Shown here: piece after piece, positions 21,968-41,933 of the stretch | How positions within the stretch are numbered: the first letter of the stretch is position 1 | How the letters are laid out: each line of letters starts with the position of its first letter | Position numbers and translations under genes: made by a program | The notes under the pieces: model-generated | Database searches by the model: none | Seen by the model: only the letters and a program-made list of their open reading frames with translations | Told to the model about the DNA's origin: nothing | Assembly: GCA_005773635.1 (NCBI GenBank) | Contig: SXHN01000118.1 | Coordinates: forward strand, 124,001 to 188,000 | Direction: 5' to 3' | Length of the DNA stretch: 64,000 nt | DNA from: Actinomycetota bacterium | Lineage (GTDB): Bacteria > Actinomycetota > Acidimicrobiia > IMCC26256 > PALSA-610

Positions 21968-21987
21968 AACTAACCGCTCGGTTACTT
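21968..21987. promoter_or_regulatory. TetR-type operator, copy A
   Basis: AACTAACCGCTCGGTTACTT is an inverted repeat with 8 of 10 symmetrical pairs. It lies 32 bases before the start of the swivel-protein/P450 operon. The same element recurs at 29371, 33496 and 35547 in the promoter regions of other catabolic operons. A TetR-family gene ends within the 33496 copy, which is why it is the proposed binder. Confidence 0.65.
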
Positions 21988-22040
21988 CTGCGGTAGTCCT
22001 GTCATCTCATTCGGACACATTCACGCGCCTGCCGGGCGCG

Positions 22041-22196
22041 ATGGTGTTGTCATGGATCGTGACCAAGCAGTGCAGCCTCCTACTCCTGTTTCGTGAACAT
22101 CGCACGGGGCTCAGAAACCAACAAGTCGCTGAACTTCTCGGCGTGTCGCCAGCTACAGCTCTCAGAATTGTGCGCGACGCAGCCCAACGACATTAG
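22041..22196 (+). pseudogene. Remnant of an HTH (IclR-like) regulator
   Basis: Within the 375-base gap 21937-22311, a 51-codon frame from ATG 22041 to TAG 22194-22196 encodes LLLLFREHRTGLRNQQVAEL, then LGVSPATALRIVRDAAQRH. This closely resembles the N-terminal helix-turn-helix of IclR-type regulators. A second frame, starting at ATG 22052, gives MDRDQAVQ, the usual lead-in of that domain, so one base shift at about 22076 would join them. No effector domain follows. Most likely this is a frameshifted, truncated gene; a genuine 51-residue DNA-binding protein is less likely. The rest of the gap holds the TetR-type operator at 21968 and nothing else I recognise. Confidence 0.45.
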
Positions 22197-22311
22197 CTCC
22201 GAAACGGCAAGCTGATCGCGCTCAACGCCGGCGGCGAAACCGCAATGACAGCCGTTGCCGGAATAGGTCGGTGGCGACGACGCAGACAACGGTCCAACGC
22301 TCGAAGGAGCG

Positions 22312-23838
22312 TTACCGACCTGCCCAGTACGGCGCTCGCAGAGCACGACGACTGATTTTGCCCATCGACGTGCGGCCTAAATCGTCGACAAACTCCACCG
22401 AGCGCGGGCACTTAAACGCCGACAATCGTTGCCGGCAATAGGCGAGAATTTCGGCCTCGCTCACGGCGCAGCCCTGCGTCAACACCACCAAGGCCCGCAG
22501 TTCCTCGCCCATCTCAGTGTGTGGGATGCCGATGCAGGCAACATCATGGACGCCAGGGTGGTCGATGAGAAAATTCTCGACCTCGGCCGGATACAAATTC
22601 ACGCCACCCGAGACGACCATGTCCGAGAAACGGTCGGTGATGTACACGAAGCCTTCTTCGTCAATCCGACCCATTTCGCCGAGCGTAAACACCCCCGGTT
22701 CGAGATGTGCTGCGGCAGATTTCTCCGGATCATTGTGGTACACAATTCCTCGGCCGGTGGTGTCACGAAAGTACAGCTTGCCTTCAACATTCGGGCCAAC
22801 TGGTTGGTCGTCATCGTCAACGATTATGGCTTCAAACGGCGGATCGGCTTGCCCAACCGACCCGGGGTGTGCCAGCCAATCGACGCTGTTGATCGAACAC
22901 GTGGTGCCCACTTCACTTGCCCCGTAGGCCTCAAGAAACACAGGGCCCCACCACTCGATCATCGCACGCTTCACCTCATCAGGACACTTGGCACCGGTAT
23001 GCGCGACATACTCCATCGACGAGATGTCGTACCGAGCGCGCACTTCAAGCGGCAGGGCAAGAAGACGCACGAAGTGGGTTGGCACCATCACCGAACTCCG
23101 TGTCTTGTGACGATCGATCGCCGCGAGCGTGGCTTCGGCATCGAAACGACGAAGGATCACCGAGGAAGTACCTGCGGCGAGAATGCGCATGCCAGACAAC
23201 GGCCCGGTGTGGTACATCGGCCCAACCACAAGGTGCGGCCCGTAGTCGGCGAAGCGCGCATGCTTGAGCGCATCGAGATGCTGCGCCATCGTGTCTCCTC
23301 CGGCAAACATCGAAGGAGGAAGCTCAGTGCCTTTCGGCAAACCTGTCGTACCCGACGTATACAGCAGGTTCGGGCGGGGTCGGATCGACGTTGGCGGGTT
23401 CGCGTCATCCGCCCCACCAATCCAAGTCGTCCAGTCCACGACATCGTCATCGCCGCACCCACCCCAACCAACGATCGTCCCAACCCCAGCAGCCTTTGCC
23501 GCTTCAACGCCTCGAGCCGCTGTCTCGGGTCCTACGAACAGGATCGATGTGTCTGAATCTGCGAGGATGTATGCAGCCTCGGATGCATTCAGGTGAAAGT
23601 TGACCGGCACCGTCGAAGCTCCGCCAATCAAACAACCAAGGTGTGCCAACGCCGTCTCGGCTGCGTTCTCGGCGAACACTGCGACTCGGGCACTCGGACC
23701 CAGATCAGCGGCTAGCACCTGATTCGCCACGCGATTCAGCGTCGAGTTGATCTCGGACCAAAGAAACACTCGTTCACCATCAACGAGCGCGTGCTCGTCG
23801 GGTCGAAGTCTGGCGAGTGTCGCGGCAAATTCAGGCAC
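22312..23838 (-). CDS. Acyl-CoA synthetase (AMP-forming, FadD family)
   Basis: A 508-residue ANL-superfamily ligase that activates a carboxylic acid to its acyl-CoA with ATP through an acyl-adenylate. The motifs are LLYTSGTTGLPKG near residue 158, EAYGASEVG, ITDRFSDMVVSGGVNLYPAE (the hinge region) and the C-terminal catalytic lysine in SMGKISRRAL. The start is GTG 23838, only 2 bases past the stop of the histidine-phosphatase gene. This is the last gene of a tightly packed six-gene operon running from the molybdopterin oxidoreductase at 29361. It would supply the CoA thioester used by the thiolase-fold/DUF35 pair and dehydrogenases of the region. The acid specificity is unknown. Confidence 0.92.
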   Translation of the reverse strand: MPEFAATLARLRPDEHALVDGERVFLWSEINSTLNRVANQVLAADLGPSARVAVFAENAAETALAHLGCLIGGASTVPVNFHLNASEAAYILADSDTSILFVGPETAARGVEAAKAAGVGTIVGWGGCGDDDVVDWTTWIGGADDANPPTSIRPRPNLLYTSGTTGLPKGTELPPSMFAGGDTMAQHLDALKHARFADYGPHLVVGPMYHTGPLSGMRILAAGTSSVILRRFDAEATLAAIDRHKTRSSVMVPTHFVRLLALPLEVRARYDISSMEYVAHTGAKCPDEVKRAMIEWWGPVFLEAYGASEVGTTCSINSVDWLAHPGSVGQADPPFEAIIVDDDDQPVGPNVEGKLYFRDTTGRGIVYHNDPEKSAAAHLEPGVFTLGEMGRIDEEGFVYITDRFSDMVVSGGVNLYPAEVENFLIDHPGVHDVACIGIPHTEMGEELRALVVLTQGCAVSEAEILAYCRQRLSAFKCPRSVEFVDDLGRTSMGKISRRALRAPYWAGR

Positions 23839-23840
23839 CG

Positions 23841-24545
23841 TTATAACGCATTCATTGGATTGAGTTCAGTTTGGAACGATCGCACGTGCGTGTGATCATT
23901 CACCTGCACGACCCGGCGCATCTCGTCCATTGCCCGAACTGTCGTGATCGAAGTGTGATGCACAGTGCACGGAGTGTCGAGGCTCGATTCCAAACAATGA
24001 GCAAGGTATGCATTAATGACTCCACCATGGCACGCCACCGCGACGCGCTGGCCGACATGGGTCCGCATAATCGCGTCGATGGCGTGCACGACGCGTCGAC
24101 GAAACTGCTCGCGGGGTTCGCTGTAGGGATACGAATCCCAGCGTTGCGTGCGGTTGCCAGTTTGCATGATGGCTCGCAATGCTGCCGCGTCAAGCGAGTC
24201 GAGTAAGCCCTTGTCCTGCGGAAGTTCGCGCCAAAGATTGATCTCACCCAGGTCCTCGATTTCTGAGACTGTGAGACTGTGCGATTCGGCGATGGCACGC
24301 GCGGTATCGCGAGCACGCTGCAGCGTTGAGCTGTACACCGCACTGATATTGAGCGTCGACAAGCGTGCCCCGACTGCGGCCGCTTGACGAAGGCCGAGTT
24401 CCGACAGTGGCGCATCGACAGCGTCGGCCAAAGCCATATTGGTGGCAAGCACTTGTTCACCGTGCCGTACCAGTAGCACTTCGCACGCACCCTCGAGATT
24501 GGTGAGGAACGAACTAGCTAGATCGACTGAACGGACACGAGCCAT
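23841..24545 (-). CDS. Histidine phosphatase family protein
   Basis: A 234-residue phosphoglycerate-mutase-like protein. The catalytic RHG motif is in LLVRHGEQVLA, a phosphate-pocket arginine in SSTLQRARDTARAIA, and the second catalytic histidine in VAVACHGGVINAYL. The family removes phosphate from small molecules or proteins through a phosphohistidine. Its start ATG shares a base with the TGA of the thiolase-fold gene (TGATG), so translation is coupled. An in-frame TTG one codon upstream is less likely. Placement inside a CoA-ester degradation operon is unusual; dephosphorylation of an intermediate, perhaps made by the swivel protein at 20203, is a speculative link. Confidence 0.85.
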   Translation of the reverse strand: MARVRSVDLASSFLTNLEGACEVLLVRHGEQVLATNMALADAVDAPLSELGLRQAAAVGARLSTLNISAVYSSTLQRARDTARAIAESHSLTVSEIEDLGEINLWRELPQDKGLLDSLDAAALRAIMQTGNRTQRWDSYPYSEPREQFRRRVVHAIDAIMRTHVGQRVAVACHGGVINAYLAHCLESSLDTPCTVHHTSITTVRAMDEMRRVVQVNDHTHVRSFQTELNPMNAL

Positions 24546-25693
24546 CAACGGCTCAAAATCGTGACACCCGAGATGCCGGGTGATCCGTACACATGGGTGT
24601 AAGCCACTCTTGGATTGCCTTGCACTTGGCGCGGTCCCGCGTTGCCACGGAGCTGCACGACATTCTCATACACCTGACGCAAACCACTCGCACCAACTGG
24701 TTCGCCATTCGCGAGACACCCACCATCGGTGTTCACCGGGAATCGGCCGCCAATCTCGGTATCGCCGCGAGCGATCATCTCTTCTTGTTCGCCATGTTCG
24801 CAGAATCCGTTCTCGGCCATATGCATGATCTCCGCTCCGACCTCAGTGTCTTGCAACTGGGCGACATCGATGTCGTCAGGGCCAACTCCAGCCATCTCAA
24901 AGGCCGCCTTCGACGCATCGATTGTGGGGCCATCACCGCGTTCGGTCGCAAGATGCGGCGCCATCACTTCGAACGAACCGAAACGGCGCGACCGCACCAC
25001 CGCGGCTTTCAGGTACACCGGAGAATTCGTGAACTCTCGGGCGCGATCCGCACGACACAGCACGAGCGCGACCGCACCCTCAGCAGGAGAACAAAACATG
25101 TATTGCGTGAGCGGATACGACAACATGCGAGACGAACGCACTTCCTCCACACTCAGTTCATTGCGACGCCACGCCATTGGGTTCATCGCTCCATTACGTG
25201 ACGCTTTGTTAGCTACCGAAGCCAGCGTCGCATGACTGATGCCGTAGTCGTGCATATACCGGTTGATCTTCATGCCAAAAAACTGTGTGGTCAACGCGAG
25301 CCCAGACTCGCCGTACCAGTCTTCAAGACCATTCTCCTTGAGGTCAACGCGAAACGCGCCCCGTTCGTGTTTGTCAAAGCCGATAGCTATCCCTACGTCA
25401 AACATGCCTGATTTGATCGAGTTGTAAGCGCTAAATAGCGCCGACCCTCCAGTGGCGCAGCCGTTCGAAACGTTGATGAATTGCAGCCCGGTAAGCCCAA
25501 GTTTGGAAACCATGGTGTCGGCCGCACCCGCGGCTTGACTGCCACCAAACGCGAACTGAATGTCCTCCCACTGTATCGACGCGTCGGTCAACGCCCGCCG
25601 CACGGCCACGACACCTTGATCGATTCCTTCGACCCCATCGTGACGGCCAAACTCGTGCATACCAATTCCGACAATGGCGACGTCATCACTCAC
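24545..25693 (-). CDS. Thiolase-fold protein (SCP2/Ltp2-like), probable aldolase or thiolase
   Basis: A 382-residue thiolase-superfamily protein. The nucleophile-position cysteine is kept (C79 in NVSNGCATGGSAL). The usual GHPxGxxG motif reads NGEPVGASG with E331 in place of histidine, and the C-terminal catalytic CxG is replaced by YGSPGISG. Such changes are seen in SCP2-type proteins like Ltp2, which work with a DUF35 partner as retro-aldolases in steroid side-chain breakdown. Exactly such a partner precedes it with a GTGA overlap. So carbon-carbon cleavage by retro-aldol reaction is more likely than classical thiolysis, though this is inference. The start is GTG 25693. Confidence 0.85.
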   Translation of the reverse strand: MSDDVAIVGIGMHEFGRHDGVEGIDQGVVAVRRALTDASIQWEDIQFAFGGSQAAGAADTMVSKLGLTGLQFINVSNGCATGGSALFSAYNSIKSGMFDVGIAIGFDKHERGAFRVDLKENGLEDWYGESGLALTTQFFGMKINRYMHDYGISHATLASVANKASRNGAMNPMAWRRNELSVEEVRSSRMLSYPLTQYMFCSPAEGAVALVLCRADRAREFTNSPVYLKAAVVRSRRFGSFEVMAPHLATERGDGPTIDASKAAFEMAGVGPDDIDVAQLQDTEVGAEIMHMAENGFCEHGEQEEMIARGDTEIGGRFPVNTDGGCLANGEPVGASGLRQVYENVVQLRGNAGPRQVQGNPRVAYTHVYGSPGISGVTILSR

Positions 25694-26139
25694 GATTGGC
25701 TCAACTTCTCTGTAGCGGAGACAGGTGCAAACGCGAAAGTGACAACTTGTTCACCATTCTCGTTCACGTATAACGGTTCGAGGACCAATTCAAGTTCCAT
25801 TCCAATATCGAGAAAGTCGGGATCGGCGATCGTCAACCGAGACTCCACCAGTAACTTGCCGTCGATTTCGATGTAACCGACGCCGTATGGCTCGAATGTT
25901 GCCGGGTCAACGTTGCCCGCGTACGGCGGTGCTTTTGGAGGATATGACTGCACAGTCCATGTCCACAGTGTGCCACGGCGACCGAGTTCAACGGTCGTGG
26001 TTGACGCGCCACCACATTTTGAACAACCCGCTTGCAACGGAAACATATGGTTGGCACAGGCTGTGCAACGGCTCGCGAGAAGTTGCGGAGCGCCGCTCGG
26101 CCCGGTGAAAAGACCTTGAGCTACCGGAATCGTTTGCAA
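25690..26139 (-). CDS. DUF35 OB-fold/zinc-ribbon protein, partner of the thiolase-fold gene
   Basis: A 149-residue protein with an N-terminal rubredoxin-like zinc ribbon (CTACANHMFPLQAGCSKCG, four cysteines) and a C-terminal OB fold (GTLWTWTVQSYPPKAPPY, GYIEIDGKLLVESRL). DUF35 proteins bind acyl-CoA and form complexes with SCP2-type thiolase-fold enzymes. The start is the TTG at 26139, one base after the stop of the zinc dehydrogenase. The family N-terminus (GLFTGPSGAPQLLASRC) begins at once and there is no other start. It overlaps the thiolase-fold gene by 4 bases (GTGA). Together they probably form one enzyme. Confidence 0.88.
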   Translation of the reverse strand: MQTIPVAQGLFTGPSGAPQLLASRCTACANHMFPLQAGCSKCGGASTTTVELGRRGTLWTWTVQSYPPKAPPYAGNVDPATFEPYGVGYIEIDGKLLVESRLTIADPDFLDIGMELELVLEPLYVNENGEQVVTFAFAPVSATEKLSQS

Positions 26140-26140
26140 G

Positions 26141-27181
26141 TTATGAACTCCATGTTGGTTTCACTAATACCTTCATTTGGTTCGAAGCGCCGCTCGCTAA
26201 TTCCGCGAACGTAGCGGCGAGCCCTTCGATATTCGTTGTTGATGTGTGCAACTGATCGACGCGCACTACACCGTCAGCCAATAGATCCATCGCAGCTTCT
26301 ACCTCATGGCGTACATACCCAATCGCACTGACAGTGGTGATCTCTTTTCGAAGCCACGTTGCTGAGTCGATTGAGATGAGATCGTCCTTCAACCCGATCA
26401 TCGAAACGGACCCTCCGCGTCGAGCGAGGCCAACCGAGGCGGTAAGCGACTCCGTTCCGCCGACACAGTCGTACACGACATTGGCTCCGATACCGCGCGT
26501 GTGATCCGCGACGATGTCGGCCGCAGCTTCAATCGAACACACTGAGGTTGCACCAAGCTCGGAGGCCAAAGCTTGACGGAATACGTTCGGCTCAACGACC
26601 ACCACATCGCGAGCGCCAGCTGAAAACGCGCATTGCATCACTGTCAGGCCAACTGGCCCAGCACCAAGCACCACCGCGACGTCACCGAAGCGGAGTGCGC
26701 TGCGGTTGACAGCGTGCAATGCCACCGCAACCGGCTCGACTTGAGCCAGGGTCTCATCGTCAAGGTTCGAATGAGCCGACACGACTCTGCTCGCGTTCAC
26801 AGCGATGCGCGCCGCAAACCCACCGTGTGGCGGTGCATCAGGGTCGCGACCGTGCAGCACGCTGACACATACGGCGCAGTGGGCGCCCGACCCATCTACA
26901 CAGGCGGAACACAGTCCACAAGCAGGCGGCACGCCAACAACCACGCGGTCGCCCTCTTGAACCGCAACGACTCCCGTGCCAATCGCCGAAACTGTTCCCG
27001 TCCATTCATGCCCACAGATTGCAGGCCTGTAGACCCGACCCGAAACGTACGCATGCACATCAGTACCGCATATTCCGCAGTAACCAACGTCGACTACAAC
27101 GCATCCCGCGGCGGGCGACGGCTCGGGGAATTCCCGGATTTGGATTACGCCAGCACCCGTAATCAACGCCGCCAACATCAT
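26141..27181 (-). CDS. Zinc-dependent medium-chain alcohol dehydrogenase
   Basis: A 346-residue MDR-superfamily dehydrogenase. Catalytic-zinc ligands lie in CGICGTDVHAY and GHEWTG. A four-cysteine structural zinc lobe spans about residues 88-106 (CGLCSACVDGSGAHCAVC). The NAD(P) loop is LGAGPVGL near residue 172. It should oxidise an alcohol or polyol, or reduce a ketone, in the cytosol. Two ATGs (27181, 27178) are in tandem. The first overlaps the stop of the molybdopterin oxidoreductase by 4 bases (ATGA), so expression is coupled to that gene. It is the second gene of the 29361-22312 operon. Confidence 0.92.
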   Translation of the reverse strand: MMLAALITGAGVIQIREFPEPSPAAGCVVVDVGYCGICGTDVHAYVSGRVYRPAICGHEWTGTVSAIGTGVVAVQEGDRVVVGVPPACGLCSACVDGSGAHCAVCVSVLHGRDPDAPPHGGFAARIAVNASRVVSAHSNLDDETLAQVEPVAVALHAVNRSALRFGDVAVVLGAGPVGLTVMQCAFSAGARDVVVVEPNVFRQALASELGATSVCSIEAAADIVADHTRGIGANVVYDCVGGTESLTASVGLARRGGSVSMIGLKDDLISIDSATWLRKEITTVSAIGYVRHEVEAAMDLLADGVVRVDQLHTSTTNIEGLAATFAELASGASNQMKVLVKPTWSS

Positions 27182-29361
27182 TGCGCCACTTCGCTCACGG
27201 AGCGCACGCGCACGGGGATCGCGCTCTGCACAGCCATGCCAGTAATGCGGTCGAACCCTTCCTCGGTTGACACCAATCGGTTCGTGGCAACGCCTTCACG
27301 ACGCACATCAGCTGGTCCCGTTGATGCCCCACCCCACGAGTGTGACATCGACACAACACCACGCTTTACATCATCGGCCGCGGCGGCAACGCCAACGATC
27401 GCGCCGTGCTTCGATTCGATCTGCACCAAGTCACCATCGGCCAAGCCAAGCTGCACCAAATCGTCAGGGTGCATGTAGGCCGGGTTCGTCGTTCCTACGC
27501 GGGCAAGGCCAGGGAGTTCACGGCCAAGCGAGTTGACCACGTGTTTCATCCGGCGGCTGACCAGTCGGAACGAGAACGGGTTGCCTTGCAGGGCATCGAA
27601 GGTTTCGCCAGCACTTGGCTCCGCGAGAACTTCTTCGAGCTCCGCAACGACATCCGCCGGAGCCAGGTCGAAACGAGCACCGTCGAGCGAGTCGTCGTCA
27701 ACAACCAACACTTTGTTTTGCGGATGGATAACGCCGCGATTCGAGCGCATCTCCTGCATCGACAGTCGCGCGTTCGCATACACGAGATCGAGGATCGAGT
27801 CGTCGTCGACCGTGGGGTCGAGCACTCCGTTCGCATGCGGAATGCTTCCACCGGCCAATTGGATCTGTGTGCCGTTGCGCGCCGCGATTCCTGCGAATAC
27901 TTCCCATTCGGCAAGGAGATCATCTCCGCTGTCGAGTATCGCGGGGGTGTAATTACTGTACGGGGCGGGAAATCTGCTGTCCATGATGTGCGGCACATCA
28001 GCTCGCTCGAGCTCCAAGCGAGGAGCGATGACGTAGTGCGCTCGCTGCGCAGTTGGAGTCATACGAGGATCAATAACCACGAGTAGTTCCAACGAGTCGA
28101 GAGCCGCCTCGGTCTTGGCCTGATCTGGGAACGCCACAACAGGATTGCCACCCGCGACAATGAGCGCCCGGACCTGGCCTGCGCCGGGCGTGAGAATCTC
28201 ATCGGCAAGCCGACTCGTGAGCATCTCACCAGCCATACCGGACAATCCATGCATCCGATGCTCCGCACCTGGTGTGGGATCGGAAGGCGCAATAACCCGG
28301 GCGCAACGCGTACCGCCAGCCACAAGAAAGCTCCCATTCTCGAACCAGTCACCGGGTTGGCGTACACGGCCGCACAACACGTTCAGCGCCAAAGTGAGGT
28401 GCTCGGTCAACATCGAGTGTGGCGCCATGTTCGGGCCGGTGCCGGTGCCAGCCGATCCACGGGGACCCGTCGCAAACATCTCGGCGGCGACCGCTATGTC
28501 GTTGCTCGAAACGCGGGCCCGATTCGCAGCGTAATCAAGCGAGTATCCGTCGACGGCACGAGCCAACTCCGCGACGCCATCAACGTGGCGCTCGCAAAAC
28601 ACTTGATCGAACAACTTGTTCGCGAGAATGTGGCGAATCATGGCCGCTAGGACCACGGTATCTTCGCCCGGCTGCACCTGCAGCCAAACATTCGCCGCGC
28701 TCGCCAATTCAGTGCGGCGCGGATCAATCACGATCAGCTTCATGCCGCGATCACGAGCCTGGCGCAACGCAACAAACGGGTTCGTGCCTTGCAGACCGCC
28801 TGCGGGGCCGTAGCTCGATACCAACGGGTTGTAGCCGACGGCGAGAGAAACATTGGCGTCAGTGAAGTTGTCCCAGCCGGCTTCCCAGGTGCCCATCCGC
28901 AATCCGGCAGCGCGATGCGCGGGTTGATCGATCGTGATCGAGGTGTACATCGACGGAGATCCGAAGCCTGCATGCCAGGCCGAGGTCACAGCTACCGAGG
29001 TTGAATTCTGAAACGCGCCCGTTCCCGTGTAGCTCGCCACGGCACGGGGCCCATGTTCACCAACAATCCGCGCGATGGTACGTGCAATCTCATCAAGCGC
29101 GACCGACGAACTGATGGCTTCGAATCCCACTGCCGCGCGCCGAAGCGTCGCCCGAACCCGATCAGGATGGTGGTGCTGATCGCCAAGTTGGCGACCTTTG
29201 ATGCACGTATAACCGCCAAACAACGGATCATCGCGATCTCCACTGACGGCGATTACCGTGTTGCGGTCGGCAACCTTGATCTCGAGGGGGCAGGCAGCAT
29301 GACATACACGACAAAACGTCTTGTGCGTCTCCACTATCTGGTCACCTAACTGGTCCGGCAT
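27178..29361 (-). CDS. Molybdopterin (bis-MGD) oxidoreductase with N-terminal 4Fe-4S cluster
   Basis: A 727-residue member of the DMSO-reductase superfamily. An N-terminal [4Fe-4S] motif reads FCRVCHAACPLEIK with a fourth cysteine in GYTCIKGR about 27 residues on. Molybdopterin-binding segments follow, such as SYTGTGAFQNSTS, IVIDPRRTELA-type text (KLIVIDPRRTELASAANVWL), and the C-terminal dinucleotide domain (GLADGDLVQIESKHG). There is no Tat signal, so it should act in the cytosol. The ATG at 29361 is chosen because upstream in-frame sequence is antisense to the divergent SDR gene and has no family similarity. It is the first gene of a six-gene operon directly behind an operator-like palindrome. 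No dedicated electron-transfer subunit is adjacent, and the substrate is unknown. Confidence 0.9.
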   Translation of the reverse strand: MPDQLGDQIVETHKTFCRVCHAACPLEIKVADRNTVIAVSGDRDDPLFGGYTCIKGRQLGDQHHHPDRVRATLRRAAVGFEAISSSVALDEIARTIARIVGEHGPRAVASYTGTGAFQNSTSVAVTSAWHAGFGSPSMYTSITIDQPAHRAAGLRMGTWEAGWDNFTDANVSLAVGYNPLVSSYGPAGGLQGTNPFVALRQARDRGMKLIVIDPRRTELASAANVWLQVQPGEDTVVLAAMIRHILANKLFDQVFCERHVDGVAELARAVDGYSLDYAANRARVSSNDIAVAAEMFATGPRGSAGTGTGPNMAPHSMLTEHLTLALNVLCGRVRQPGDWFENGSFLVAGGTRCARVIAPSDPTPGAEHRMHGLSGMAGEMLTSRLADEILTPGAGQVRALIVAGGNPVVAFPDQAKTEAALDSLELLVVIDPRMTPTAQRAHYVIAPRLELERADVPHIMDSRFPAPYSNYTPAILDSGDDLLAEWEVFAGIAARNGTQIQLAGGSIPHANGVLDPTVDDDSILDLVYANARLSMQEMRSNRGVIHPQNKVLVVDDDSLDGARFDLAPADVVAELEEVLAEPSAGETFDALQGNPFSFRLVSRRMKHVVNSLGRELPGLARVGTTNPAYMHPDDLVQLGLADGDLVQIESKHGAIVGVAAAADDVKRGVVSMSHSWGGASTGPADVRREGVATNRLVSTEEGFDRITGMAVQSAIPVRVRSVSEVAQ

Positions 29362-29370: not shown

Positions 29371-29390
29371 AACTAATCGCTGAGTTAGTT
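29371..29390. promoter_or_regulatory. TetR-type operator, copy B, between divergent operons
   Basis: AACTAATCGCTGAGTTAGTT has six perfectly paired outer bases on each side (AACTAA/TTAGTT). It sits in the 37-base space between the molybdopterin oxidoreductase operon (starts 29361, leftward) and the SDR/Rieske operon (starts 29399, rightward). One bound dimer could control both directions. The very short leaders suggest leaderless or nearly leaderless transcripts. Confidence 0.65.
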
Positions 29391-32594: not shown

Positions 32595-32645
32595 TGTGGG
32601 CTCCCGCTTCATTAGTACGGCTAGAAAGGGCGAATAGCACGAGCG

Positions 32646-33495: not shown

Positions 33496-33515
33496 TACTA
33501 ACCGCGCGGTTAGTT
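33496..33515. promoter_or_regulatory. TetR-type operator, copy C (best palindrome)
   Basis: TACTAACCGCGCGGTTAGTT has an uninterrupted 18-base perfect palindrome (33497-33514). It overlaps the stop codon of the TetR gene (33510-33512) and lies upstream of the two-SDR operon. It is the best match to the consensus of copies A, B and D. A regulator binding at its own gene end could repress the downstream SDR genes directly. Confidence 0.7.
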
Positions 33516-34204: not shown

Positions 34205-35479
34205 GTGACCGTATCCGTTGAAGAGTTTGCCGCTGACGCCGCACATTGGCTCGCGGCGCATGGCGAACGCCTGGGCCAAGACACCTCCGACGACGTCAAC
34301 GGTCACGAGGTCGTGTGGGGCCACGGACACATGAACGTCGCGGTGTTCCATGCACTGAGCTTCGACGACGAACGCGCGCTACTTGCGGACGCGCAACGAT
34401 GGCGCATGCTGAAAGCCACACGCGGCTACCACGCAATCACCGAAACTCCCGCGGTCGGTGGGCTCGGCCTCACCAAGGAACACGCCCGAGCGTTCGCGGT
34501 TCTCGAACGTGGATATCGAGTGCCGCCGAGCCACGAGTCGTTCAGCGTTACAACCGACTTGATCTCTCCGACAGTTGCGGTGTTCGGAAGCCCACAACAG
34601 CAGTCACAATTCGTGGGCGCGTTCCTCGCAGCAGAGCAACTGTGCTGCCAATTGTTTTCGGAGCCTGGCGCAGGTTCCGACCTCGCTGGGCTCGCGTGCC
34701 GAGCCGACCGCCACGAAGATGAATGGATAGTCAACGGCCAGAAAGTGTGGAGCTCGGGTGCACAGTTCAGCGAGTGGGGTTTGCTCATCACCCGCTCCGA
34801 CCCAAGCGCGCCCAAACACAAAGGCATGACTGCATTTCTCATCCCAATGGATTTGCCGGGGGTGGAGATTCGCCCTATCCGTCAAATGAGCGGCGGTAGT
34901 TCATTCAACGAAGTGTTTTTCCAAGACTGTCGGATCGCGGATTCAATGCGGCTCGGGGCAGTTGGCGAGGGCTGGAAGGTGGCAGTCACGACGCTTGGCT
35001 TCGAGCGCGACCACAGTGATCCCACTGGTGCGGCAGGCGGCGATCGCCCCGGTGGGAGGTGGTCGCATCTCTTGGCCACTGCACGCGCAATGGGTGTCAC
35101 TAATGATGCGGGCATGCGCCAGGATCTCATCAAGGTGTTCATCCATAAACGAGTCGAGGCACTACTCAACCAACGGGCCGCCGATCTGGCCCGCGGCGGC
35201 ACACCCGGCCCAGAAGGGTCGTTGGGCAAACTCATGTGGACCGAAGGCATGACCACAATGTCACGAGTTGTGACGCGCATCCTTGGGCCGAATCTGACGG
35301 CAGACACTGGAGCGTGGGGTACCTGGGAATGGGGGGAACACGTGCTCGGGGCCCCCGGATATCGCATTGCTGGCGGGTCCGACGAGGTACAGCGCAACAT
35401 CATTGGCGAACGGGTGCTTGGCCTCCCCATGGAGCCACGGCCCGATAAGACAATTCCGTGGTCCGAATTACCGCGTTAA
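34205..35479 (+). CDS. Acyl-CoA dehydrogenase
   Basis: A 424-residue acyl-CoA dehydrogenase with LFSEPGAGSDLAGLACRA, GQKVWSSGAQFSEWG and the C-terminal GGSDEVQRNIIGERVLG. The position of the usual C-terminal catalytic glutamate is non-acidic. A glutamate in TLGFERDHSD near residue 273 is the likely base, as in the isovaleryl/long-chain FadE type. It starts at GTG 34205, divergent from the TetR gene. It should introduce an alpha-beta double bond into an acyl-CoA and pass electrons to ETF. It lies 99 bases before the SDR at 35579, which has its own operator, so it is probably a separate unit. Confidence 0.88.
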   Translation: MTVSVEEFAADAAHWLAAHGERLGQDTSDDVNGHEVVWGHGHMNVAVFHALSFDDERALLADAQRWRMLKATRGYHAITETPAVGGLGLTKEHARAFAVLERGYRVPPSHESFSVTTDLISPTVAVFGSPQQQSQFVGAFLAAEQLCCQLFSEPGAGSDLAGLACRADRHEDEWIVNGQKVWSSGAQFSEWGLLITRSDPSAPKHKGMTAFLIPMDLPGVEIRPIRQMSGGSSFNEVFFQDCRIADSMRLGAVGEGWKVAVTTLGFERDHSDPTGAAGGDRPGGRWSHLLATARAMGVTNDAGMRQDLIKVFIHKRVEALLNQRAADLARGGTPGPEGSLGKLMWTEGMTTMSRVVTRILGPNLTADTGAWGTWEWGEHVLGAPGYRIAGGSDEVQRNIIGERVLGLPMEPRPDKTIPWSELPR

Positions 35480-35546: not shown

Positions 35547-35566
35547 AACTAACCACACGATTAATT
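35547..35566. promoter_or_regulatory. TetR-type operator, copy D
   Basis: AACTAACCACACGATTAATT matches the copy-C sequence at most positions but is a weaker palindrome (6 of 10 pairs). It lies 12 bases before the ATG at 35579 and so fronts the SDR/ThuA/E1alpha/E1beta/E2 operon. Its GGAG ribosome-binding site follows directly. Confidence 0.55.
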
Positions 35567-35578: not shown

Positions 35579-36337
35579 ATGGATCTCGGACTTAAGGGCA
35601 AGCGCGCGTTGGTGACGGGCTCGACCAAAGGGATCGGGCGCGCCATCGCTGAAGTGTTACTCGCCGAAGGCGCGTCAGTGGCGATCTGCGCGCGCAGCGG
35701 CGACGCGGTCAAGGCGACCATCGCCGAGCTGTCTGAGCATGGCATGGTCGTGGGCGACGTTGTCGACGCGGCCGATCTCGCATCGATCGAAACATGGGTC
35801 GCGAACTCCGCAGAGCAGCTCGGCGGCATCGATATCTACGTGCACAACACATCTGGCAAACCCCAAAAGGTGCTGACCGATTGGTCGAAAAACTTCGAAA
35901 CCGATTTGGTGGCTCTCGTCGGCGGAGTTGCCAGCGCCGCAAACATCTTGGAAGCCGATGGTGGTGGTTCGCTCGTCAGCATCGGAACCACCGCGTCGGC
36001 GGAACACTTCGGCTCGGGTTCGGGGAGTTACAGCGCCTTCAAAGCTGCAGTGACCAACTGGACGTTGGGTCAGGCGCAAGTGCTCGGTGCACGCGGCATC
36101 CGGTGCAACGTTGTATCGCCGGGCCCCGTCGTGTTCGATGGCGGAGATTGGGCCAACATTCGTGCTGCGAAACCCGAGTTCTATGACGCGACGGTCGCGT
36201 CACACCCGACCGGGCGGCTGGGTTCTGCTCGCGATATCGCCAACGTCGTTGCGTTCCTGTCCAGCGATGCAGCCGCACACATCAATGGCGCCAACGTCAC
36301 GGTCGACGGCGGTTTTCTCAAGCGCATCAACTACTGA
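35579..36337 (+). CDS. Short-chain dehydrogenase/reductase
   Basis: A 252-residue SDR with cofactor loop TGSTKGIGRA, HNTSG in place of NNAG, catalytic serine region SIGTTASAEHFGSGSG, and YSAFK (Tyr-x3-Lys). The ending is VDGGFLKRINY. The glycine-rich insertion before the tyrosine is unusual. It should act as an NAD(P)-dependent alcohol dehydrogenase or ketoreductase. The ATG at 35579 has GGAG six bases upstream and directly follows operator copy D. It is the first gene of a five-gene operon ending with the E2 gene at 40511, with 25 bases to the next gene and then overlapping starts and stops. Confidence 0.9.
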   Translation: MDLGLKGKRALVTGSTKGIGRAIAEVLLAEGASVAICARSGDAVKATIAELSEHGMVVGDVVDAADLASIETWVANSAEQLGGIDIYVHNTSGKPQKVLTDWSKNFETDLVALVGGVASAANILEADGGGSLVSIGTTASAEHFGSGSGSYSAFKAAVTNWTLGQAQVLGARGIRCNVVSPGPVVFDGGDWANIRAAKPEFYDATVASHPTGRLGSARDIANVVAFLSSDAAAHINGANVTVDGGFLKRINY

Positions 36338-36362
36338 GTATCGGGATCTGAGTATTCAGCCC

Positions 36363-37136
36363 ATGACCGACCCCCGGGTGCCACCGTCTCGAATCGATGT
36401 TTGCCTCGTCGTAGGAGGCGTGTATCACGACTTCGATTTTGCTCGTCGAGAGCTTCTCCAACTACTGAGCGAACACGACCGTGCGCGCGTGTCGGTACGC
36501 CACAATTGGGACGACGTTCAAACACTGTCGGCGGCCGATGCGATCATCAGCTACACCTGTGATGTGCGTCCCAACGAGGCAAGCCAGGCTGCGCTGCGCG
36601 AATGGGTCGAGCGCGGTGGGCGTTGGGTTGCGCTGCACGGCACCAACGCCGCCCTCGATCACCCTCGACCCGCGGGGGTTGAAGCACCTCGTTGCTTTGC
36701 AAGCTTCGCGCACACCTTGGGGAGCCAGTTCATCGCGCACCCAGAGATAGGTCCATTCACTGTCGAAAACGCGAGCCCGGATCACTGGTTGGTCGCGGGT
36801 ATCGATTCGTTCATAACTCGTGATGAGCTATACCTGATGGAGCACCTCGACCCAGATGCACTCGAAGTGTTGCTCCGCACGCACTGGCTTGGCGAGACCC
36901 CCAGCTTCGCCGAATCCGATTGGAACAGCGGCTCGGGCGAACGGCTCGTGCAATATCTACGACCGCTCGGCAATGGTGCTGTGCTGTACAACACACTTGG
37001 CCACTGCCGCGGCCACTACGACATGGCGCCGTTGCAGGACTACTACCCGACCATCGAACGATGTTCTTGGGAAACTGCCCAATATTACGAACTTCTACGT
37101 CGAGCAATCCGCTGGGCCTTTGGAGCCACCGAATGA
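36363..37136 (+). CDS. ThuA-like domain protein
   Basis: A 257-residue protein with the ThuA (trehalose-utilisation/glutamine-amidotransferase-like) fold. It shows CLVVGGVYHDFDFARRELL, a central DAIISYTCDV, REWVERGGRWVALHGTNAAL, GSQFIAHP with the conserved histidine, and YNTLGHCRGHYDM near the end. ThuA proteins occur in sugar and sugar-derivative catabolism, but their chemistry is largely undefined. The ATG at 36363 is taken because sequence upstream in this frame is antisense-like text from the SDR. Its stop overlaps the E1alpha start (ATGA). Its presence in a 2-oxoacid dehydrogenase operon is unusual. Confidence 0.75.
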   Translation: MTDPRVPPSRIDVCLVVGGVYHDFDFARRELLQLLSEHDRARVSVRHNWDDVQTLSAADAIISYTCDVRPNEASQAALREWVERGGRWVALHGTNAALDHPRPAGVEAPRCFASFAHTLGSQFIAHPEIGPFTVENASPDHWLVAGIDSFITRDELYLMEHLDPDALEVLLRTHWLGETPSFAESDWNSGSGERLVQYLRPLGNGAVLYNTLGHCRGHYDMAPLQDYYPTIERCSWETAQYYELLRRAIRWAFGATE

Positions 37137-38149
37137 CCGCACAACCCAACATCGTCGATCAAGCAACCATCGAAGATCTCCATCGGCGCATGGTGCGTAT
37201 CCGATTTTTTGAAGAGTCGGCCGGAAAAATCTTCGAGGCCAACAAGATCCCCGGTTTCGTACACCTCTACGTAGGTCAGGAAGCTGTCGCGGCCGGCGTA
37301 TGTGTCGCGCTGCGCGATGAAGACCAAATCAGCTCGACACACCGCGGCCACGGCCACCTGGTCGCCAAGGGCGGCGATCTCGCCAAGATGATGGCCGAAC
37401 TCATGGGTAAAGCCACTGGCTACTGCCAGGGCAAGGGTGGCTCAATGCATATCTGCGACCTTGAGCTCAACATGTTGGGTGCGAACGGCATTGTCGGAGG
37501 AGGGATTCCGATCGCGGTCGGTGCGGGCTTTGCCAATAAATACCGCAAGAACGAAACCGTATCTGTGGCGTTTTTTGGCGATGGCACCACAAATATCGGG
37601 GCATTCCACGAAGCCGCGAATATGGCTGCAGCACTGAAGCTGCCCGTGCTCTTCGTTTGTGAGAACAACGAGTATGCGGAATATACGCAGCGCTCCAAGA
37701 CTATGGCGATCGACGACGTCGCGCAACGAGCAGCCGCGTATGGCATGCCTGCGACGATCGTCGATGGGATGAACGCCCTCGCCGTATTCGAAGCAACTGT
37801 TGATGCCCTCGCAGCAATTCGCTCGGGCAACGGACCGGCGTTTCTCGAATGTAAGACTTACCGGTACTACAACCATCATGGAATACAGACACTCGGAATG
37901 AAGTACCGCAGCGACGACGAAGTCGCGCTATGGCGAGCGCGCGATCCGATTGCCGCACATGAGACGACGATGATCAGCAATGGCGTCGCGACCCAGGCCA
38001 GCATCGACGCGACGCGCGCGACAATATCGGCCGAGATCGGCGAAGCGATCGCGTTCGCAGAATCCAGCCCGCTCCCCGACCCGAGCGGGTTGCTCGACAA
38101 CGTCTACACCGAAAGCTCCGATTCAGCGCCAGTTGGAGTTCGGACATGA
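37133..38149 (+). CDS. 2-oxoacid dehydrogenase (pyruvate/acetoin type) E1 alpha subunit
   Basis: A 338-residue thiamin-diphosphate enzyme subunit with HLYVGQEAVAAGVCVAL, STHRGHGHLVAKG, CQGKGGSMHI and the ThDP/Mg motif GDGTTNIGAFHEAANMAA. The end of the motif carries the family's CENNEYAEYT. Together with the next gene it decarboxylates a 2-oxo acid (or cleaves an acetoin-like diketone/ketol) and passes the acyl group to lipoyl-E2. Length and motifs are closest to PDH/acetoin-dehydrogenase alpha chains; branched-chain enzymes are an alternative. It overlaps the ThuA gene before it and E1 beta after it by 4 bases each (ATGA). Confidence 0.9.
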   Translation: MTAQPNIVDQATIEDLHRRMVRIRFFEESAGKIFEANKIPGFVHLYVGQEAVAAGVCVALRDEDQISSTHRGHGHLVAKGGDLAKMMAELMGKATGYCQGKGGSMHICDLELNMLGANGIVGGGIPIAVGAGFANKYRKNETVSVAFFGDGTTNIGAFHEAANMAAALKLPVLFVCENNEYAEYTQRSKTMAIDDVAQRAAAYGMPATIVDGMNALAVFEATVDALAAIRSGNGPAFLECKTYRYYNHHGIQTLGMKYRSDDEVALWRARDPIAAHETTMISNGVATQASIDATRATISAEIGEAIAFAESSPLPDPSGLLDNVYTESSDSAPVGVRT

Positions 38150-39150
38150 GCGAACGAGAACTTTCTTATCTGCACTCGTTTACCGAAGGTTTGCGTCAGG
38201 TAATGGAAGTGGACCCGAGCGTATTTGTCGCGGGCGAAGACGTTGGCCGCACCGGTGGTGTCTTTCACAGTTTCGATGGGTTGTTCGACGTGTTCGGCGA
38301 AGATCGCATGGTCGACACGCCGATTTCTGAACAAGCGATTATCGGGCTCGGCATCGGCGCGGCGGTCGTTGGTCTGCGGCCGGTCGTCGACTTGATGTTC
38401 ATGGATTTCGTGCTCGTCGCGATGGATCAGATTGTGAATCAGGCCGCGAAGTTGAAGTACATGTTTGGTGGCAACGCCACGTTGCCGCTCACTATCACCA
38501 CTATGGGCGGTGCAGGTTTATCGGCGGGGGCACAACACAGTCAGAGCTTGGAAGCCATGCTGTGTCATGTGCCTGGGCTGAAGGTCGTGATGCCTGCCAA
38601 CGCCTACGATCTCAAAGGGCTGACCATCTCGGCGATTCGCGACGACAATCCCACCATCGTGGTATTGCACAAGAAACTGCTGGGAATCAAGGGGTTTGTG
38701 CCCGAGGCCGCGTACGAGATCCCCCTCGGCTCCGCAACGGTTACTCGAACGGGCAACGATGTGACGCTCATCGCGTATAGCCGTATGGCGATCGAGGCCC
38801 TCGCCGCGGCGAAGCTTCTTGAAGACCAAGATATCGACTGCGAAGTGATCGATCTGCGCACCGTAAGCCCGATCGACTTCGACACCGTGCTCACCTCCGC
38901 ACGCAAAACGAATCGCGTGGTGATCGTGCACGAAGCCGTTCGTTCGGGCGGCCTCGGTGCAGAGCTCGCGGCGCAAATCCAAGAGCACGCTTTCGACTAT
39001 CTCGACGCGCCGGTCGCTCGCGTTGCAGCACCATTCGCTCCGATTCCGTTTAGTCCCGCGCTCGAATCTGCATACATTCCCGACGCTCACAGCATCGCCG
39101 CGCAGGTGCGAGCCACCTTGCATCGTCCGGTCCCTGGCATGTCACGCTGA
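38146..39150 (+). CDS. 2-oxoacid dehydrogenase E1 beta subunit
   Basis: A 334-residue transketolase-type subunit with VFVAGEDVGRTGGVF, DTPISEQAIIGLGIGAA, the QIVNQAAKLKYMFGG segment lining the ThDP pocket, GAQHSQSLEAM (conserved histidine), and the C-terminal domain with DLRTVSPIDFDTV and VHEAVRSGGLGAEL. It pairs with E1 alpha to form the alpha2beta2 decarboxylase. The start overlaps the E1 alpha stop (ATGA), ensuring equal synthesis. The E2 gene follows after 2 bases. Confidence 0.92.
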   Translation: MSERELSYLHSFTEGLRQVMEVDPSVFVAGEDVGRTGGVFHSFDGLFDVFGEDRMVDTPISEQAIIGLGIGAAVVGLRPVVDLMFMDFVLVAMDQIVNQAAKLKYMFGGNATLPLTITTMGGAGLSAGAQHSQSLEAMLCHVPGLKVVMPANAYDLKGLTISAIRDDNPTIVVLHKKLLGIKGFVPEAAYEIPLGSATVTRTGNDVTLIAYSRMAIEALAAAKLLEDQDIDCEVIDLRTVSPIDFDTVLTSARKTNRVVIVHEAVRSGGLGAELAAQIQEHAFDYLDAPVARVAAPFAPIPFSPALESAYIPDAHSIAAQVRATLHRPVPGMSR

Positions 39151-39152
39151 TC

Positions 39153-40511
39153 ATGGCCGTCGAATTCCAAATGCCGAAGCTCGGCCTCACCATGGAGTCG
39201 GGCCGCATCGTCGAATGGCTGGTAGCCGACGGCGCCAACGTGCAACAAGGCGAAGCGGTGCTGGTTGTCGAAACCGACAAGGTCGACACCGATATCGAAG
39301 CAAGCGGCTCAGGGATCCTGCACATCAGTGCCAATGCAGGCGAAACAATTGATTGTGGCGACTGCATTGGTTGGTTTCTCGCAGTGGGCGAATCGGCCCC
39401 TGTTGCCAAGGTTGCGCCCAGCACCCAGCCGAGCGCCCCGCCACTCGATACGGTCGCTTCACACACTCCGAAGCGCCAAACCGGCACCGACGGAACGCGT
39501 CAGTTTGTGTCACCCAATGCCCGCCGAGTTGCCGCGTCGAACAGTATCGATTTGTCGCAGCTCGTGGGCACCGGCCCCGGCGGAAGAATTGTTTCCGAAG
39601 ACGTCGAGGCCGCAGCGTCAAGCGGCTTGGCACCTCACTCATCTCTGATCTATACGGATGCGACTCATGCCGCACACCAGATCGCTCAACGATTTGGTAT
39701 CGATGTGCGCGACGTGCAAGCAAGAGGGCCCAACCCACGAGTCGATCGAGTCGACGTCGAACGCTACGTTCGCGAGCGCCTCGCGGAAGCCCAGAGCACC
39801 ACGATCGCAAACACTGCGCCCCCTGAGGCGGCATTACTCCAAATCCCCTCGTCGACGATTCCCTTGACGGGCATGCGCGGAACGATCGCATCAAGAATGT
39901 ATGAATCGTTACAAGCAATGGCGCAACTCACCTTGACGATGGATGCCATCATGGACGCAGTAGTTGCGCACCGGGAGGAAAGCGATCCGACCACACGGGC
40001 GAGCTACACCGACTATGTAGTCGCAGCTGTGGCAACCGCACTACAAGATCATCCGGTCGTCAACAGCCAGATCGCGGGCGGATCGCTCGCGTTGCTGCCC
40101 GACATCAATGTCGGCTTAGCTGTCGCGTTGCCGGGCGGCTTGGTCGTGCCAGTCATCAAGCACACGAACACTCTTGCCCTGCAAACGTTGAGCGAAGAAA
40201 CAACTCGACTAGCAAGCGCAGCACGGTCGGGTTCCCTGTTGCGCCATGAAGTTGAGGGCGGCACGTTCTCGGTAACAGCGCTCGGCGCATACGGCGTTGA
40301 TGCGTTTACGCCCGTAATCAATCCACCGAACACGGCGATACTTGGCGTCGGTCGCCTGCGCGACGAAGTGCGATGGGACGGTGACCTCCCAATGAAGACC
40401 AAAGTGGTGACGCTGAGCCTTACCTGGGATCATCGAGCATTCGATGGAGTGCCCGCCGCCGAATTCACCATGGCAGTCTGCGAACGCCTCAAAACCTGGG
40501 GCAGCGCGTAG
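39153..40511 (+). CDS. Dihydrolipoamide acyltransferase E2 with two E3-binding-like domains
   Basis: A 452-residue E2 subunit. The lipoyl domain is at 1-80 with the lipoylated lysine K43 (VETDKVDTDIEA). A peripheral-subunit-binding domain follows at about 117-153 (FVSPNARRVAASNSIDLSQL, GPGGRIVSEDVEA). A second similar segment lies at about 168-206 (AHQIAQRFGIDVRDVQARG, RVDRVDVERYV). The catalytic domain runs from about 236, with the active-site DHRAFDG (H427, D431). It transfers the acyl group to CoA and forms the complex core. No E3 (dihydrolipoamide dehydrogenase) gene is in the window, so E3 must come from elsewhere. Confidence 0.9.
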   Translation: MAVEFQMPKLGLTMESGRIVEWLVADGANVQQGEAVLVVETDKVDTDIEASGSGILHISANAGETIDCGDCIGWFLAVGESAPVAKVAPSTQPSAPPLDTVASHTPKRQTGTDGTRQFVSPNARRVAASNSIDLSQLVGTGPGGRIVSEDVEAAASSGLAPHSSLIYTDATHAAHQIAQRFGIDVRDVQARGPNPRVDRVDVERYVRERLAEAQSTTIANTAPPEAALLQIPSSTIPLTGMRGTIASRMYESLQAMAQLTLTMDAIMDAVVAHREESDPTTRASYTDYVVAAVATALQDHPVVNSQIAGGSLALLPDINVGLAVALPGGLVVPVIKHTNTLALQTLSEETTRLASAARSGSLLRHEVEGGTFSVTALGAYGVDAFTPVINPPNTAILGVGRLRDEVRWDGDLPMKTKVVTLSLTWDHRAFDGVPAAEFTMAVCERLKTWGSA

Positions 40512-40539
40512 CTACGCGCCACAGACCACCGACCGCGCA

Positions 40540-40590
40540 CCACCGTTGTCCGTTTTCGCACCGAAACGGTGCAGGAAAGGACAACAGTGG
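40540..40590. terminator. Inverted repeat between convergent genes, terminator-like
   Basis: CCACCGTTGTCC at 40540-40551 pairs with GGACAACAGTGG at 40579-40590 (11 of 12 positions). A second nested repeat, CCGTTT with AAACGG, lies between them. It sits between the stop of the E2 gene and the stop of the convergent acyl-CoA dehydrogenase. It could serve as a bidirectional terminator or an mRNA 3' end stabiliser. No U-run follows. Confidence 0.45.
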
Positions 40591-40605
40591 CTGCCCGAGT
40601 GAAAA

Positions 40606-41829
40606 TCAGGGAATGTGCAGGCCAGAGATGGCGCGAGCGATGACCAGGCGTTGGATCTCGCTGGTGCCCTCGAAAATCGTGTAGATCTTCGAGTCACGAT
40701 GCCATTGTTCTACCGGGTGCTCTTTGACGTAGCCCGCACCACCGAGAATTTGAATTGCTTCATCGGTGACACGCACGGCAACTTCACCGGCATAGAGCTT
40801 GCTCATCGAGCCTTCACCGGAAACGAACTGCTTGCCAGTGCGACCCATCCAACACGCACGCCACACCAGCAAACGAGCTGCGTCGATGTGCATTTTCATG
40901 TCAGCAAGTTTGAACGCGATGCCTTGATTCATAATGATCTTGCGACCAAAGGCTTCCCGTTCTTTGGCGTACTCAAGCGAATACTCATATGCCGCGCGGG
41001 CAATACCAATTGCTTGCGCACCAACCAACGGACGCGACGCTTCAAAGGTTGCCATCGCTGCCTGCACCCGTGAGCTCTTGCCTTCGCGCGCTCGTGCCAA
41101 GCGGGCATCAAGTTTTTCTTTGCCTCCAAGCAGGCACGAACCCGGCACGCGACAGTCTGTGAACACAACCTCTGAAGTGTGCGATGCGCGAATACCCATC
41201 TTCGAAAACTTCTGACCCATTTCACAGCCCGGTGTGCCCGGAGGAACGACGAACGATGCGTGACCCCGTGATTTCAATGCTGGTTCAACCGCAGCAACAA
41301 CGACGTGCACCGTTGGTACCTTCGTCATACCGCCGTTGGTGATCCAGGTCTTCGTCCCGTTGATAACCCATTCATCTTTGGCTTCGTCGTATACAGCGCG
41401 CGTGCGCAGCGACGACACGTCGGAACCAGCGTCAGGTTCACTCACCGCGAAGGCGGCCATCTGAATCTTGTCGGGAGTTCCGAAACATTGTGGCAACCAC
41501 TCACCGATTTGTTCGGGGGTGCCGTTGCCAAGAATTCCAGAAAGACCGAGCGTCGTGCCAAGCAGCGCGAGCGTGCAACCTGCATCGCCCCAAGCGAGTT
41601 CTTCGGATGCAATAGCGAGCGTAAGGCCCGTTGGGTCACCGAACGCCTCCGCGAAAAACTCCGGCGTGTAGAGCCCGATGCGTGCGGCTTCTTCAATGAC
41701 CGGCCACGGCGTTTCTTCTTTTTGGTCGTACTCCGCAGCGACGGGGCGAATCACATTCTTCGCGAAATCGTGAACCCATTGCTTCAACGTCTCTTGATCT
41801 TCATTGAGGTCGAGCGAAAATTCAGCCAT
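40606..41829 (-). CDS. Acyl-CoA dehydrogenase (canonical short/medium-chain type)
   Basis: A 407-residue acyl-CoA dehydrogenase with all usual signatures: FAVSEPDAGSDVSSLRTRA, GTKTWITNGG, YAKEREAFGRKI, QILGGAGYVKEHP, and the catalytic glutamate in FEGTSEIQRLVIARAI. It lies in the typical place for SCAD/MCAD-like enzymes, unlike the three other dehydrogenases of the window. An AGGAG site seven bases before ATG 41829 fixes the start. It converges on the E2 gene. Upstream (41874-41933) are two operator-like inverted repeats, one similar to the regional TetR-type element. Confidence 0.93.
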   Translation of the reverse strand: MAEFSLDLNEDQETLKQWVHDFAKNVIRPVAAEYDQKEETPWPVIEEAARIGLYTPEFFAEAFGDPTGLTLAIASEELAWGDAGCTLALLGTTLGLSGILGNGTPEQIGEWLPQCFGTPDKIQMAAFAVSEPDAGSDVSSLRTRAVYDEAKDEWVINGTKTWITNGGMTKVPTVHVVVAAVEPALKSRGHASFVVPPGTPGCEMGQKFSKMGIRASHTSEVVFTDCRVPGSCLLGGKEKLDARLARAREGKSSRVQAAMATFEASRPLVGAQAIGIARAAYEYSLEYAKEREAFGRKIIMNQGIAFKLADMKMHIDAARLLVWRACWMGRTGKQFVSGEGSMSKLYAGEVAVRVTDEAIQILGGAGYVKEHPVEQWHRDSKIYTIFEGTSEIQRLVIARAISGLHIP

Positions 41830-41873
41830 GTTGGTCTCCTGGGTCGGGACACGAGCATGTCCCGTAGTTACAC

Positions 41874-41933
41874 GTTACTAGTCGGTAACCATTGTACAAC
41901 TGGACCTGCGCAGCCAATAACTCGGCGAGTTAG
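41874..41933. promoter_or_regulatory. Operator-like inverted repeats upstream of an acyl-CoA dehydrogenase
   Basis: GTTAC-N6-GTAAC lies at 41874-41889, and ATAACTCG-G-CGAGTTAG at 41917-41933. The second, read on the minus strand, starts CTAACTCG and resembles the CTAACCG half-site of copies A-D, but its spacing is odd (one central base). They lie 45-104 bases before the ATG at 41829 and 56 or more bases before the divergent M23 gene. They could bind a related TetR protein. Confidence 0.4.

Follow-up and report, generated by a model that had tools for sequence, protein, structure and literature searches.

The stretch of DNA analysed here, referred to as the window, comprises 64,000 nucleotides of an Acidimicrobiia bacterium (Actinomycetota) and lies on contig SXHN01000118.1 (C115 in our numbering) of a 3.56-Mb genome that is 95% complete. 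It carries four 20-bp palindromic sites, termed operators 1 to 4 in the following, and among them the gene of a TetR-family regulator (33510..34127, minus strand). The four sites stand before five transcription units with 17 genes in total, whereby the units were judged by tight packing, with intra-unit gaps of -7 to 33 bp for the ThuA and E1 alpha starts given below. Based on sequence comparison, the four palindromes are very probably the operators of this TetR protein, which would repress the five units as a catabolic regulon.

Results

Operator 1 (21968..21987; AACTAACCGCTCGGTTACTT) precedes unit 1, with 31 bases between the site and the start codon of a phosphoenolpyruvate (PEP)-utilising mobile, or swivel, domain protein (20203..21936, minus strand; PF00391 only, without a recognised ATP-grasp domain), which is followed by a cytochrome P450 as second gene (18936..20189, minus; PF00067). 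Operator 2 (29371..29390; AACTAATCGCTGAGTTAGTT) is flanked by two divergent starts, the ATG of a molybdopterin oxidoreductase at 29361 (9 bases) and that of a short-chain dehydrogenase/reductase, SDR1, at 29399 (8 bases). The former opens unit 2, six genes on the minus strand: molybdopterin oxidoreductase (27178..29361; PF00384, PF04879), zinc-type alcohol dehydrogenase (26141..27181; PF00107, PF08240), an OB-fold protein of the ChsH2 type (25690..26139; PF01796, PF12172), a thiolase of the lipid-transfer/SCP-x kind (24545..25693; PF22691, lipid-transfer protein models remaining below cut-off), a histidine phosphatase superfamily protein (23841..24548; PF00300) and an AMP-binding acyl-CoA ligase (22312..23838; PF00501). 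The OB-fold protein is the likely partner of the thiolase. The start of the oxidoreductase was moved from 29763 to 29361, beside the operator, because the Fe4S4 domain begins at residue 146 of the listed open reading frame and an ATG is found there. Unit 3, on the plus strand, consists of SDR1 (29399..30193; PF13561) and a Rieske oxygenase alpha subunit (30190..31551; PF00848, PF00355).

Operator 3 (33496..33515; TACTAACCGCGCGGTTAGTT) covers the final 6 bases of the TetR gene and lies 70 bases from the start codon of SDR3 (32646..33425, minus; PF13561), which forms unit 4 together with SDR2 (31812..32612, minus; PF00106). Operator 4 (35547..35566; AACTAACCACACGATTAATT) is found 12 bases before the start codon of SDR4 (35579..36337, plus; PF13561), the first gene of unit 5, followed on the same strand by a ThuA-domain protein (36357..37136, start approximate; PF06283) and by the E1 alpha (37130..38149; PF00676 and PDB relatives), E1 beta (38146..39150; PF02779, PF02780) and E2 lipoyl acyltransferase (39153..40511; PF00198) components of a 2-oxoacid/acetoin dehydrogenase-type complex. 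An acyl-CoA dehydrogenase gene (34205..35479, plus; PF02770) diverges from the TetR gene and has no operator before it here. All four operator sequences were verified at their coordinates. The original prediction had placed a recurring TetR-type palindrome at five positions, and the four copies at 21968, 29371, 33496 and 35547 are indeed present, each before transcription units; the copy at 33496 is, as had been described, a perfect 18-base palindrome (33497-33514) overlapping the end of the TetR gene.

To describe the operator independently of the window, we derived a model from relatives, taking the regions upstream of orthologous genes (93 in total) and excluding the window. Hereby, the best 12 of 220 random starts all converged on the consensus AAYTRAYCGnnCGRTYARTT, and the four window sites rank 1-4 with scores of 27.4-28.4 (28.1 for operator 1). 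Single-base shuffles of the window (n = 200) gave a maximum of 22.7 and a mean of 12.4. As the motif itself had led to some of these loci, a de novo search for palindromes was made on 20 loci for which the TetR protein was the sole criterion of choice (105 regions, window excluded). The same consensus was recovered in 5/5 of the starts refined, with a motif log-likelihood of 204 compared to 43-46 in three shuffled inputs, which yielded no such motif. With the 105-region model operators 1, 4, 3 and 2 again take the first four ranks in the 64 kb (26.7, 26.4, 25.9 and 25.0, respectively), the next position scoring 12.0. A matrix built from the four sites themselves returns them at 27.2-31.0 versus 9.0 for the next window position, a comparison that is circular. 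Three places in the organism's own genome come within one mismatch of the consensus, and all of them lie in the window; the remaining operator deviates at two positions.

The exact 20-mer quoted in the original prediction does not occur in the window, its best copy having one mismatch. At up to three mismatches it has two window matches, whereas 100 shuffles gave a mean of 0.00; the copies at 29371 and 35547 differ from it by more than three. Together with the independent de novo recovery from relatives, the shuffles bear out the earlier judgement that such sites are unlikely by chance. The short core AACCGNNCGGTT was rejected as the signal, since at up to two mismatches 41 copies are found in the window versus 37 expected. 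As this core is not enriched, the signal resides in the whole 20 bp. The looser variant proposed near 41917 is not a member of the regulon: the best score in 41912-41921 is 3.0 with the 93-region model, compared to 27.4-28.4 for the four operators. At 41918-41932, upstream of a further acyl-CoA dehydrogenase gene (40606-41829), we observed a 15-bp inverted repeat, TAACTCG-G-CGAGTTA, with 7-bp arms and a one-base spacer. Its layout is unlike that of the operator and it may be the operator of another regulator. Weak matches to the 93-region model were noted at 14341-14360 (13.9, the next score in the window after the four operators) and at 21900-21919 (11.5), the latter within the start of the PEP-mobile gene and 68 bp from operator 1.

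The regulator-operator pair was searched systematically within the Acidimicrobiia (395 genomes). Orthologs of the TetR protein, called at E <=1e-25 among no more than 7 scored candidates in each genome, are found in 23 genomes including the organism's own, and the exact consensus in five; the own genome has no zero-mismatch copy. The exact consensus is present in 4/23 TetR-bearing compared to 1/372 other genomes (odds ratio 78, Fisher p 4e-5), values that are uncorrected for relatedness, the four genomes belonging to one family and two of them to one genus, and thus not independent. The sites also cluster around the regulator gene. In Desertimonas flava all six matches (five places, as two overlap) lie at 178-241 kb of contig C56, where the TetR gene is found at 229 kb, and so span 63 kb of a 6.2-Mb genome. 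All four matches in genome G050 lie within 21 kb of the TetR gene, three of four in G112 lie beside it within 44 kb of one another, and four of five in G274 are on its contig. In G395, whose TetR protein is 64% identical, the operator 2 copy before SDR1 (locus L009) is identical in 20/20 positions.

Ten further genomes served for a held-out test. Regions of at most 20 kb surrounding their TetR genes were set against regions of their contig C1, with the 93-region matrix as model. At a score of at least 20, 5/10 TetR-centred regions contain a site versus 0/10 controls, that is, eight sites in 181,941 bp versus none in 184,722 bp, and no match of 15 or more was obtained in the control regions. 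The positive regions are those of G349, G173, G280 and G355 (TetR identity 40-50%) and G179 (36%), and include 4/4 of those with an identity of at least 40%. Operator and TetR protein are thus paired among close orthologs, and this link weakens at identities under about 40%, as expected if more distant TetR proteins use other operators. Direct observation covers the operator sites, how they are conserved, where they lie and how they are linked to the regulator gene. Co-occurrence, clustering around the TetR gene and de novo recovery from TetR-chosen loci lend comparative evidence to the originally predicted assignment of the sites to the 33510-34127 protein, and a single co-regulated TetR-type system, site 41917 excepted, is well supported by these sequence data.

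Sites scoring at least 17 were mapped in 28 stretches (the window and relatives) that had been chosen around TetR genes or sites. Within this sample 55/65 sites have the start of a recognised gene at a distance of at most 400 bp, a biased rate, since the held-out regions are represented by the five that contain sites (L159, L160, L161, L162, L165) and the site-poor TetR loci L098, L099, L100, L163, L164, L166, L167 and L168 were omitted. Of the 55, 53 lie within 120 bp, and none of the 65 falls within a recognised gene. Target families were assigned by best match at identities of at least 24%, and one site can face two genes. Hereby, Rieske oxygenases (12), acyl-CoA dehydrogenases (10), importer binding proteins (9) and TetR itself (7) are the most frequent, followed by SDR4 and CoA ligase (6 each), P450 (4) and, with three each, PEP-mobile protein, molybdopterin oxidoreductase, SDR1, SDR3 and RPE65-type oxygenase; six others occur once or twice. 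At locus L094 two identical operators (6374 and 8270), 1.9 kb apart, each precede a Rieske match, one of only 88 aa, which looks like a tandem duplication. In D. flava recognised genes fill about 70 of the 80 kb examined. This cluster includes a luciferase-like monooxygenase, further Rieske proteins, an ABC importer with binding proteins, SnoaL-like, glyoxalase-like, TIM-barrel and RPE65-type proteins, and an NAD-kinase-like gene between E1 beta and E2.

The TetR protein carries an N-terminal TetR_N helix-turn-helix (PF00440, 55.9 bits, 3.7e-15, cut-off 24), and its AlphaFold2 model (pLDDT 90.2) shows an ordinary all-helical TetR fold. Its best named relatives are encoded in metagenome-assembled genomes of Acidimicrobiales/Acidimicrobiia (64, 53, 47 and 38% identical) and in D. 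flava (50%); plasmid-borne relatives, among the best 10 of 270, are about 30% identical. The protein has matches to 18 NCBIfam TetR-type families, all of them below the respective cut-off. The highest VIA rows for the model are Bacillus FadR structures, one of them with stearoyl-CoA (3whc: Z 19.0, root-mean-square deviation 2.7, 186 aligned), whereas Foldseek puts Rv0078 and EthR2 first. As row 50 still reaches Z 16.7 and many TetR structures thus lie within about two Z units, an acyl-CoA as ligand is no more than a plausible guess. Seven relatives' loci carry a site between the TetR and acyl-CoA dehydrogenase genes, which may be read as a sign of autoregulation there. In the organism studied here no such sign is seen, this promoter having no site.

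In the PEP-mobile protein, residues 235-575 align to residues 531-867 of PDB entry 5fbs, and the swivel histidine motif (ISHA or like) is retained, the histidine being invariant in 4/4 orthologs. A separate ATP-grasp partner was considered and rejected: PPDK_N matches in the own genome are on C69 and C17, and none is on C115. A gene at 6790-7740 of locus L101 was likewise dismissed as partner, being in the wrong reading frame; a frame that overlaps it has a luciferase-like appearance, and the counterpart of that frame in D. flava belongs to PF00296. The own genome further contains nine RPE65/carotenoid-oxygenase matches, seven of them strong, on C52, C25, C15, C66, C93, C115 and C8, with none in the window.

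Discussion

According to the mechanism we propose, a TetR dimer would sit on each 20-bp site, just upstream of the five unit starts, and block the transcription units until a pathway compound, perhaps an acyl-CoA, releases the repressor. Binding by TetR, its action as a repressor and not as an activator, the inducer and a role of the units in catabolism are inferred. Several observations weigh against this proposal. The promoter between the TetR and acyl-CoA dehydrogenase genes has no operator in this genome (best score -3.7 in 34100-34229, 93-region model). In the own genome, 31 places match the consensus at up to three mismatches compared to 18 for the reversed-pattern control. Apart from the four operators, the remaining 27 score at most 22.9; the four with two mismatches all lie within long open reading frames (475, 334, 323 and 277 aa), and the 23 with three were scored by matrix only. 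Whether the motif is equally frequent inside coding sequences is thereby answered in part: similar sequences do occur inside genes, but they score weaker. A first, 14-site matrix gave 49 matches of at least 11 and 11 of at least 18 in 73 loci mostly from other groups (1.21 Mb; L015-L088 without L058). The limit on scored candidates may have missed TetR orthologs. G021 (TetR 41%) has no match at up to two mismatches; G001 and G003, both without ortholog, have four each, and the reversed-pattern control gives four in G397, four in G088, two in G001 and none in 13 others, so that raw counts at this level discriminate poorly. In the held-out test, 5/10 TetR-centred regions (identity 34-39%) are without a site. 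Finally, G032 (78% complete) has an exact site and no TetR ortholog at 1e-15.

The last point and the siteless TetR promoter would fit a different TetR-family protein, encoded elsewhere, as owner of the sites, the 33510-34127 protein being merely a neighbour with other targets; TetR-family operators do resemble one another. We regard this as very unlikely, since the operator tracks the ortholog across genomes and clusters near its gene, occupies the regulator's divergent promoter in seven loci, and emerges de novo when loci are selected by means of the TetR protein. That the same protein does not simply repress at these sites but activates, or regulates in both ways, is improbable, if less so. 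Some TetR-family proteins activate, such as FasR and the LuxR/HapR group, and the distances from site to estimated start range from -31 to 323 bp; but nearly all of the start-proximal sites lie within 120 bp and many no further than 30 bp away, in the space that polymerase or ribosome would occupy. It is hardly conceivable that the palindromes are chance or structural elements such as terminators or repeats without a regulatory role. Short inverted repeats are common and the inner core alone is unenriched, but shuffles gave zero chance matches, the motif was recovered independently in relatives, the sites stand before gene starts, and the held-out controls stayed below 15.

The same operator stands before all five units, whose products would belong to one pathway. 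The enzymes are compatible with activation by CoA, oxygenation of a cyclic skeleton, steps like those of beta-oxidation and the cleavage, dependent on thiamine, of an acyloin or 2-oxo intermediate; in relatives, the ABC importer would provide for uptake. Tentatively, and with considerable doubt, we consider an as yet undescribed aerobic pathway of Acidimicrobiia whose substrate would be a cyclic terpenoid or a compound resembling apocarotenoids. The skeleton might be opened by oxygenases (Rieske and P450, in relatives also luciferase-like and RPE65-type), the ATP-grasp-less swivel protein might participate, the acetoin-dehydrogenase-type complex might cleave an acyloin or diketone, and one acyl-CoA might induce through the repressor, in parallel to a sphingomonad plasmid pathway.

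The KstR and KstR2 steroid-catabolism regulons of Mycobacteriales combine a TetR repressor with short palindromic operators before many catabolic units of an acyl-CoA-type pathway. The system described here resembles them in its TetR regulator and in short palindromes scattered before many catabolic units, so that the comparison drawn in the original prediction is a fair analogy. Yet the TetR protein, at 30.5 bits, is far below the NCBIfam KstR cut-off of 280, aligns to KstR2 chains only over residues 19-82, belongs to Acidimicrobiia instead of Mycobacteriales and would have an operator unlike the KstR motifs. Canonical steroid catabolism was rejected as the pathway, the best solved relatives of the Rieske protein being naphthalene- and biphenyl-type dioxygenases; the hallmark genes of steroid ring degradation (KstD, KshA, HsaC) were not searched for. 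Bacillus FadR, a TetR-type, acyl-CoA-responsive regulator, is the top fold match, but identity is 15-20% and the TetR protein obtains 26.1 bits versus an NCBIfam FadR cut-off of 200.

Plasmids of the sphingomonads Novosphingobium aromaticivorans (pNL2) and Sphingobium sp. TomTYG65 also bring together Rieske oxygenases or relatives, SDRs, E2 and acyl-CoA dehydrogenase. Identities in clusters L155 and L158 are 50% for ThuA, 63% for thiolase, 40-42% for the OB-fold protein and 43-44% for E1 alpha and E1 beta. The sphingomonad clusters differ in having no operator match of at least 12 (L155, L157, L158), in TonB-dependent receptors annotated at their edges and in neighbouring regulators annotated as LuxR (pNL2) and TetR (TomTYG65). 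On a Rhodococcus pyridinivorans plasmid (L156), three weak operator matches (17.1, 13.5 and 12.5) were found, and a 41% identical PEP-mobile homolog is separated by about 7 kb from an annotated pyruvate, phosphate dikinase gene. The match at 17590-17609 (17.1) is 26 bases before an annotated phosphotransferase family protein, followed by an acyl-CoA dehydrogenase. The enzymes thus also occur outside the Acidimicrobiia. The acetoin dehydrogenase (aco) operon shares the E1 alpha, E1 beta and E2 genes, and the D. flava NAD-kinase-like gene resembles AcoX. In the window this gene is absent (the E1 beta-E2 gap is 2 bp), and unlike in the aco operon the genes are embedded in an oxygenase/CoA cluster.

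Our literature search found no account of a TetR regulon with its operator in Acidimicrobiia, and none of ACTAACCG as a repressor or operator palindrome; among the TetR literature matches listed, CTAACCG in PMC6534649 is a primer sequence in the text concerned. For the substrate, the search found nothing joining ThuA, Rieske and thiolase with Novosphingobium, or ThuA, Rieske and acyl-CoA dehydrogenase with degradation, and neither ThuA nor Rieske is mentioned in the main text of the Sphingobium tomatine paper (PMC10653915). The conserved TetR regulon suggested by these comparisons is ordinary in kind and, as far as the literature searched tells, new in content.

The operator provides a handle on an uncharacterised pathway. 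It marks genes that would belong together though spread over tens of kilobases, and in relatives it extends the gene set to importer genes. The question of the substrate thereby becomes testable through release of the repressor from a 20-bp probe.

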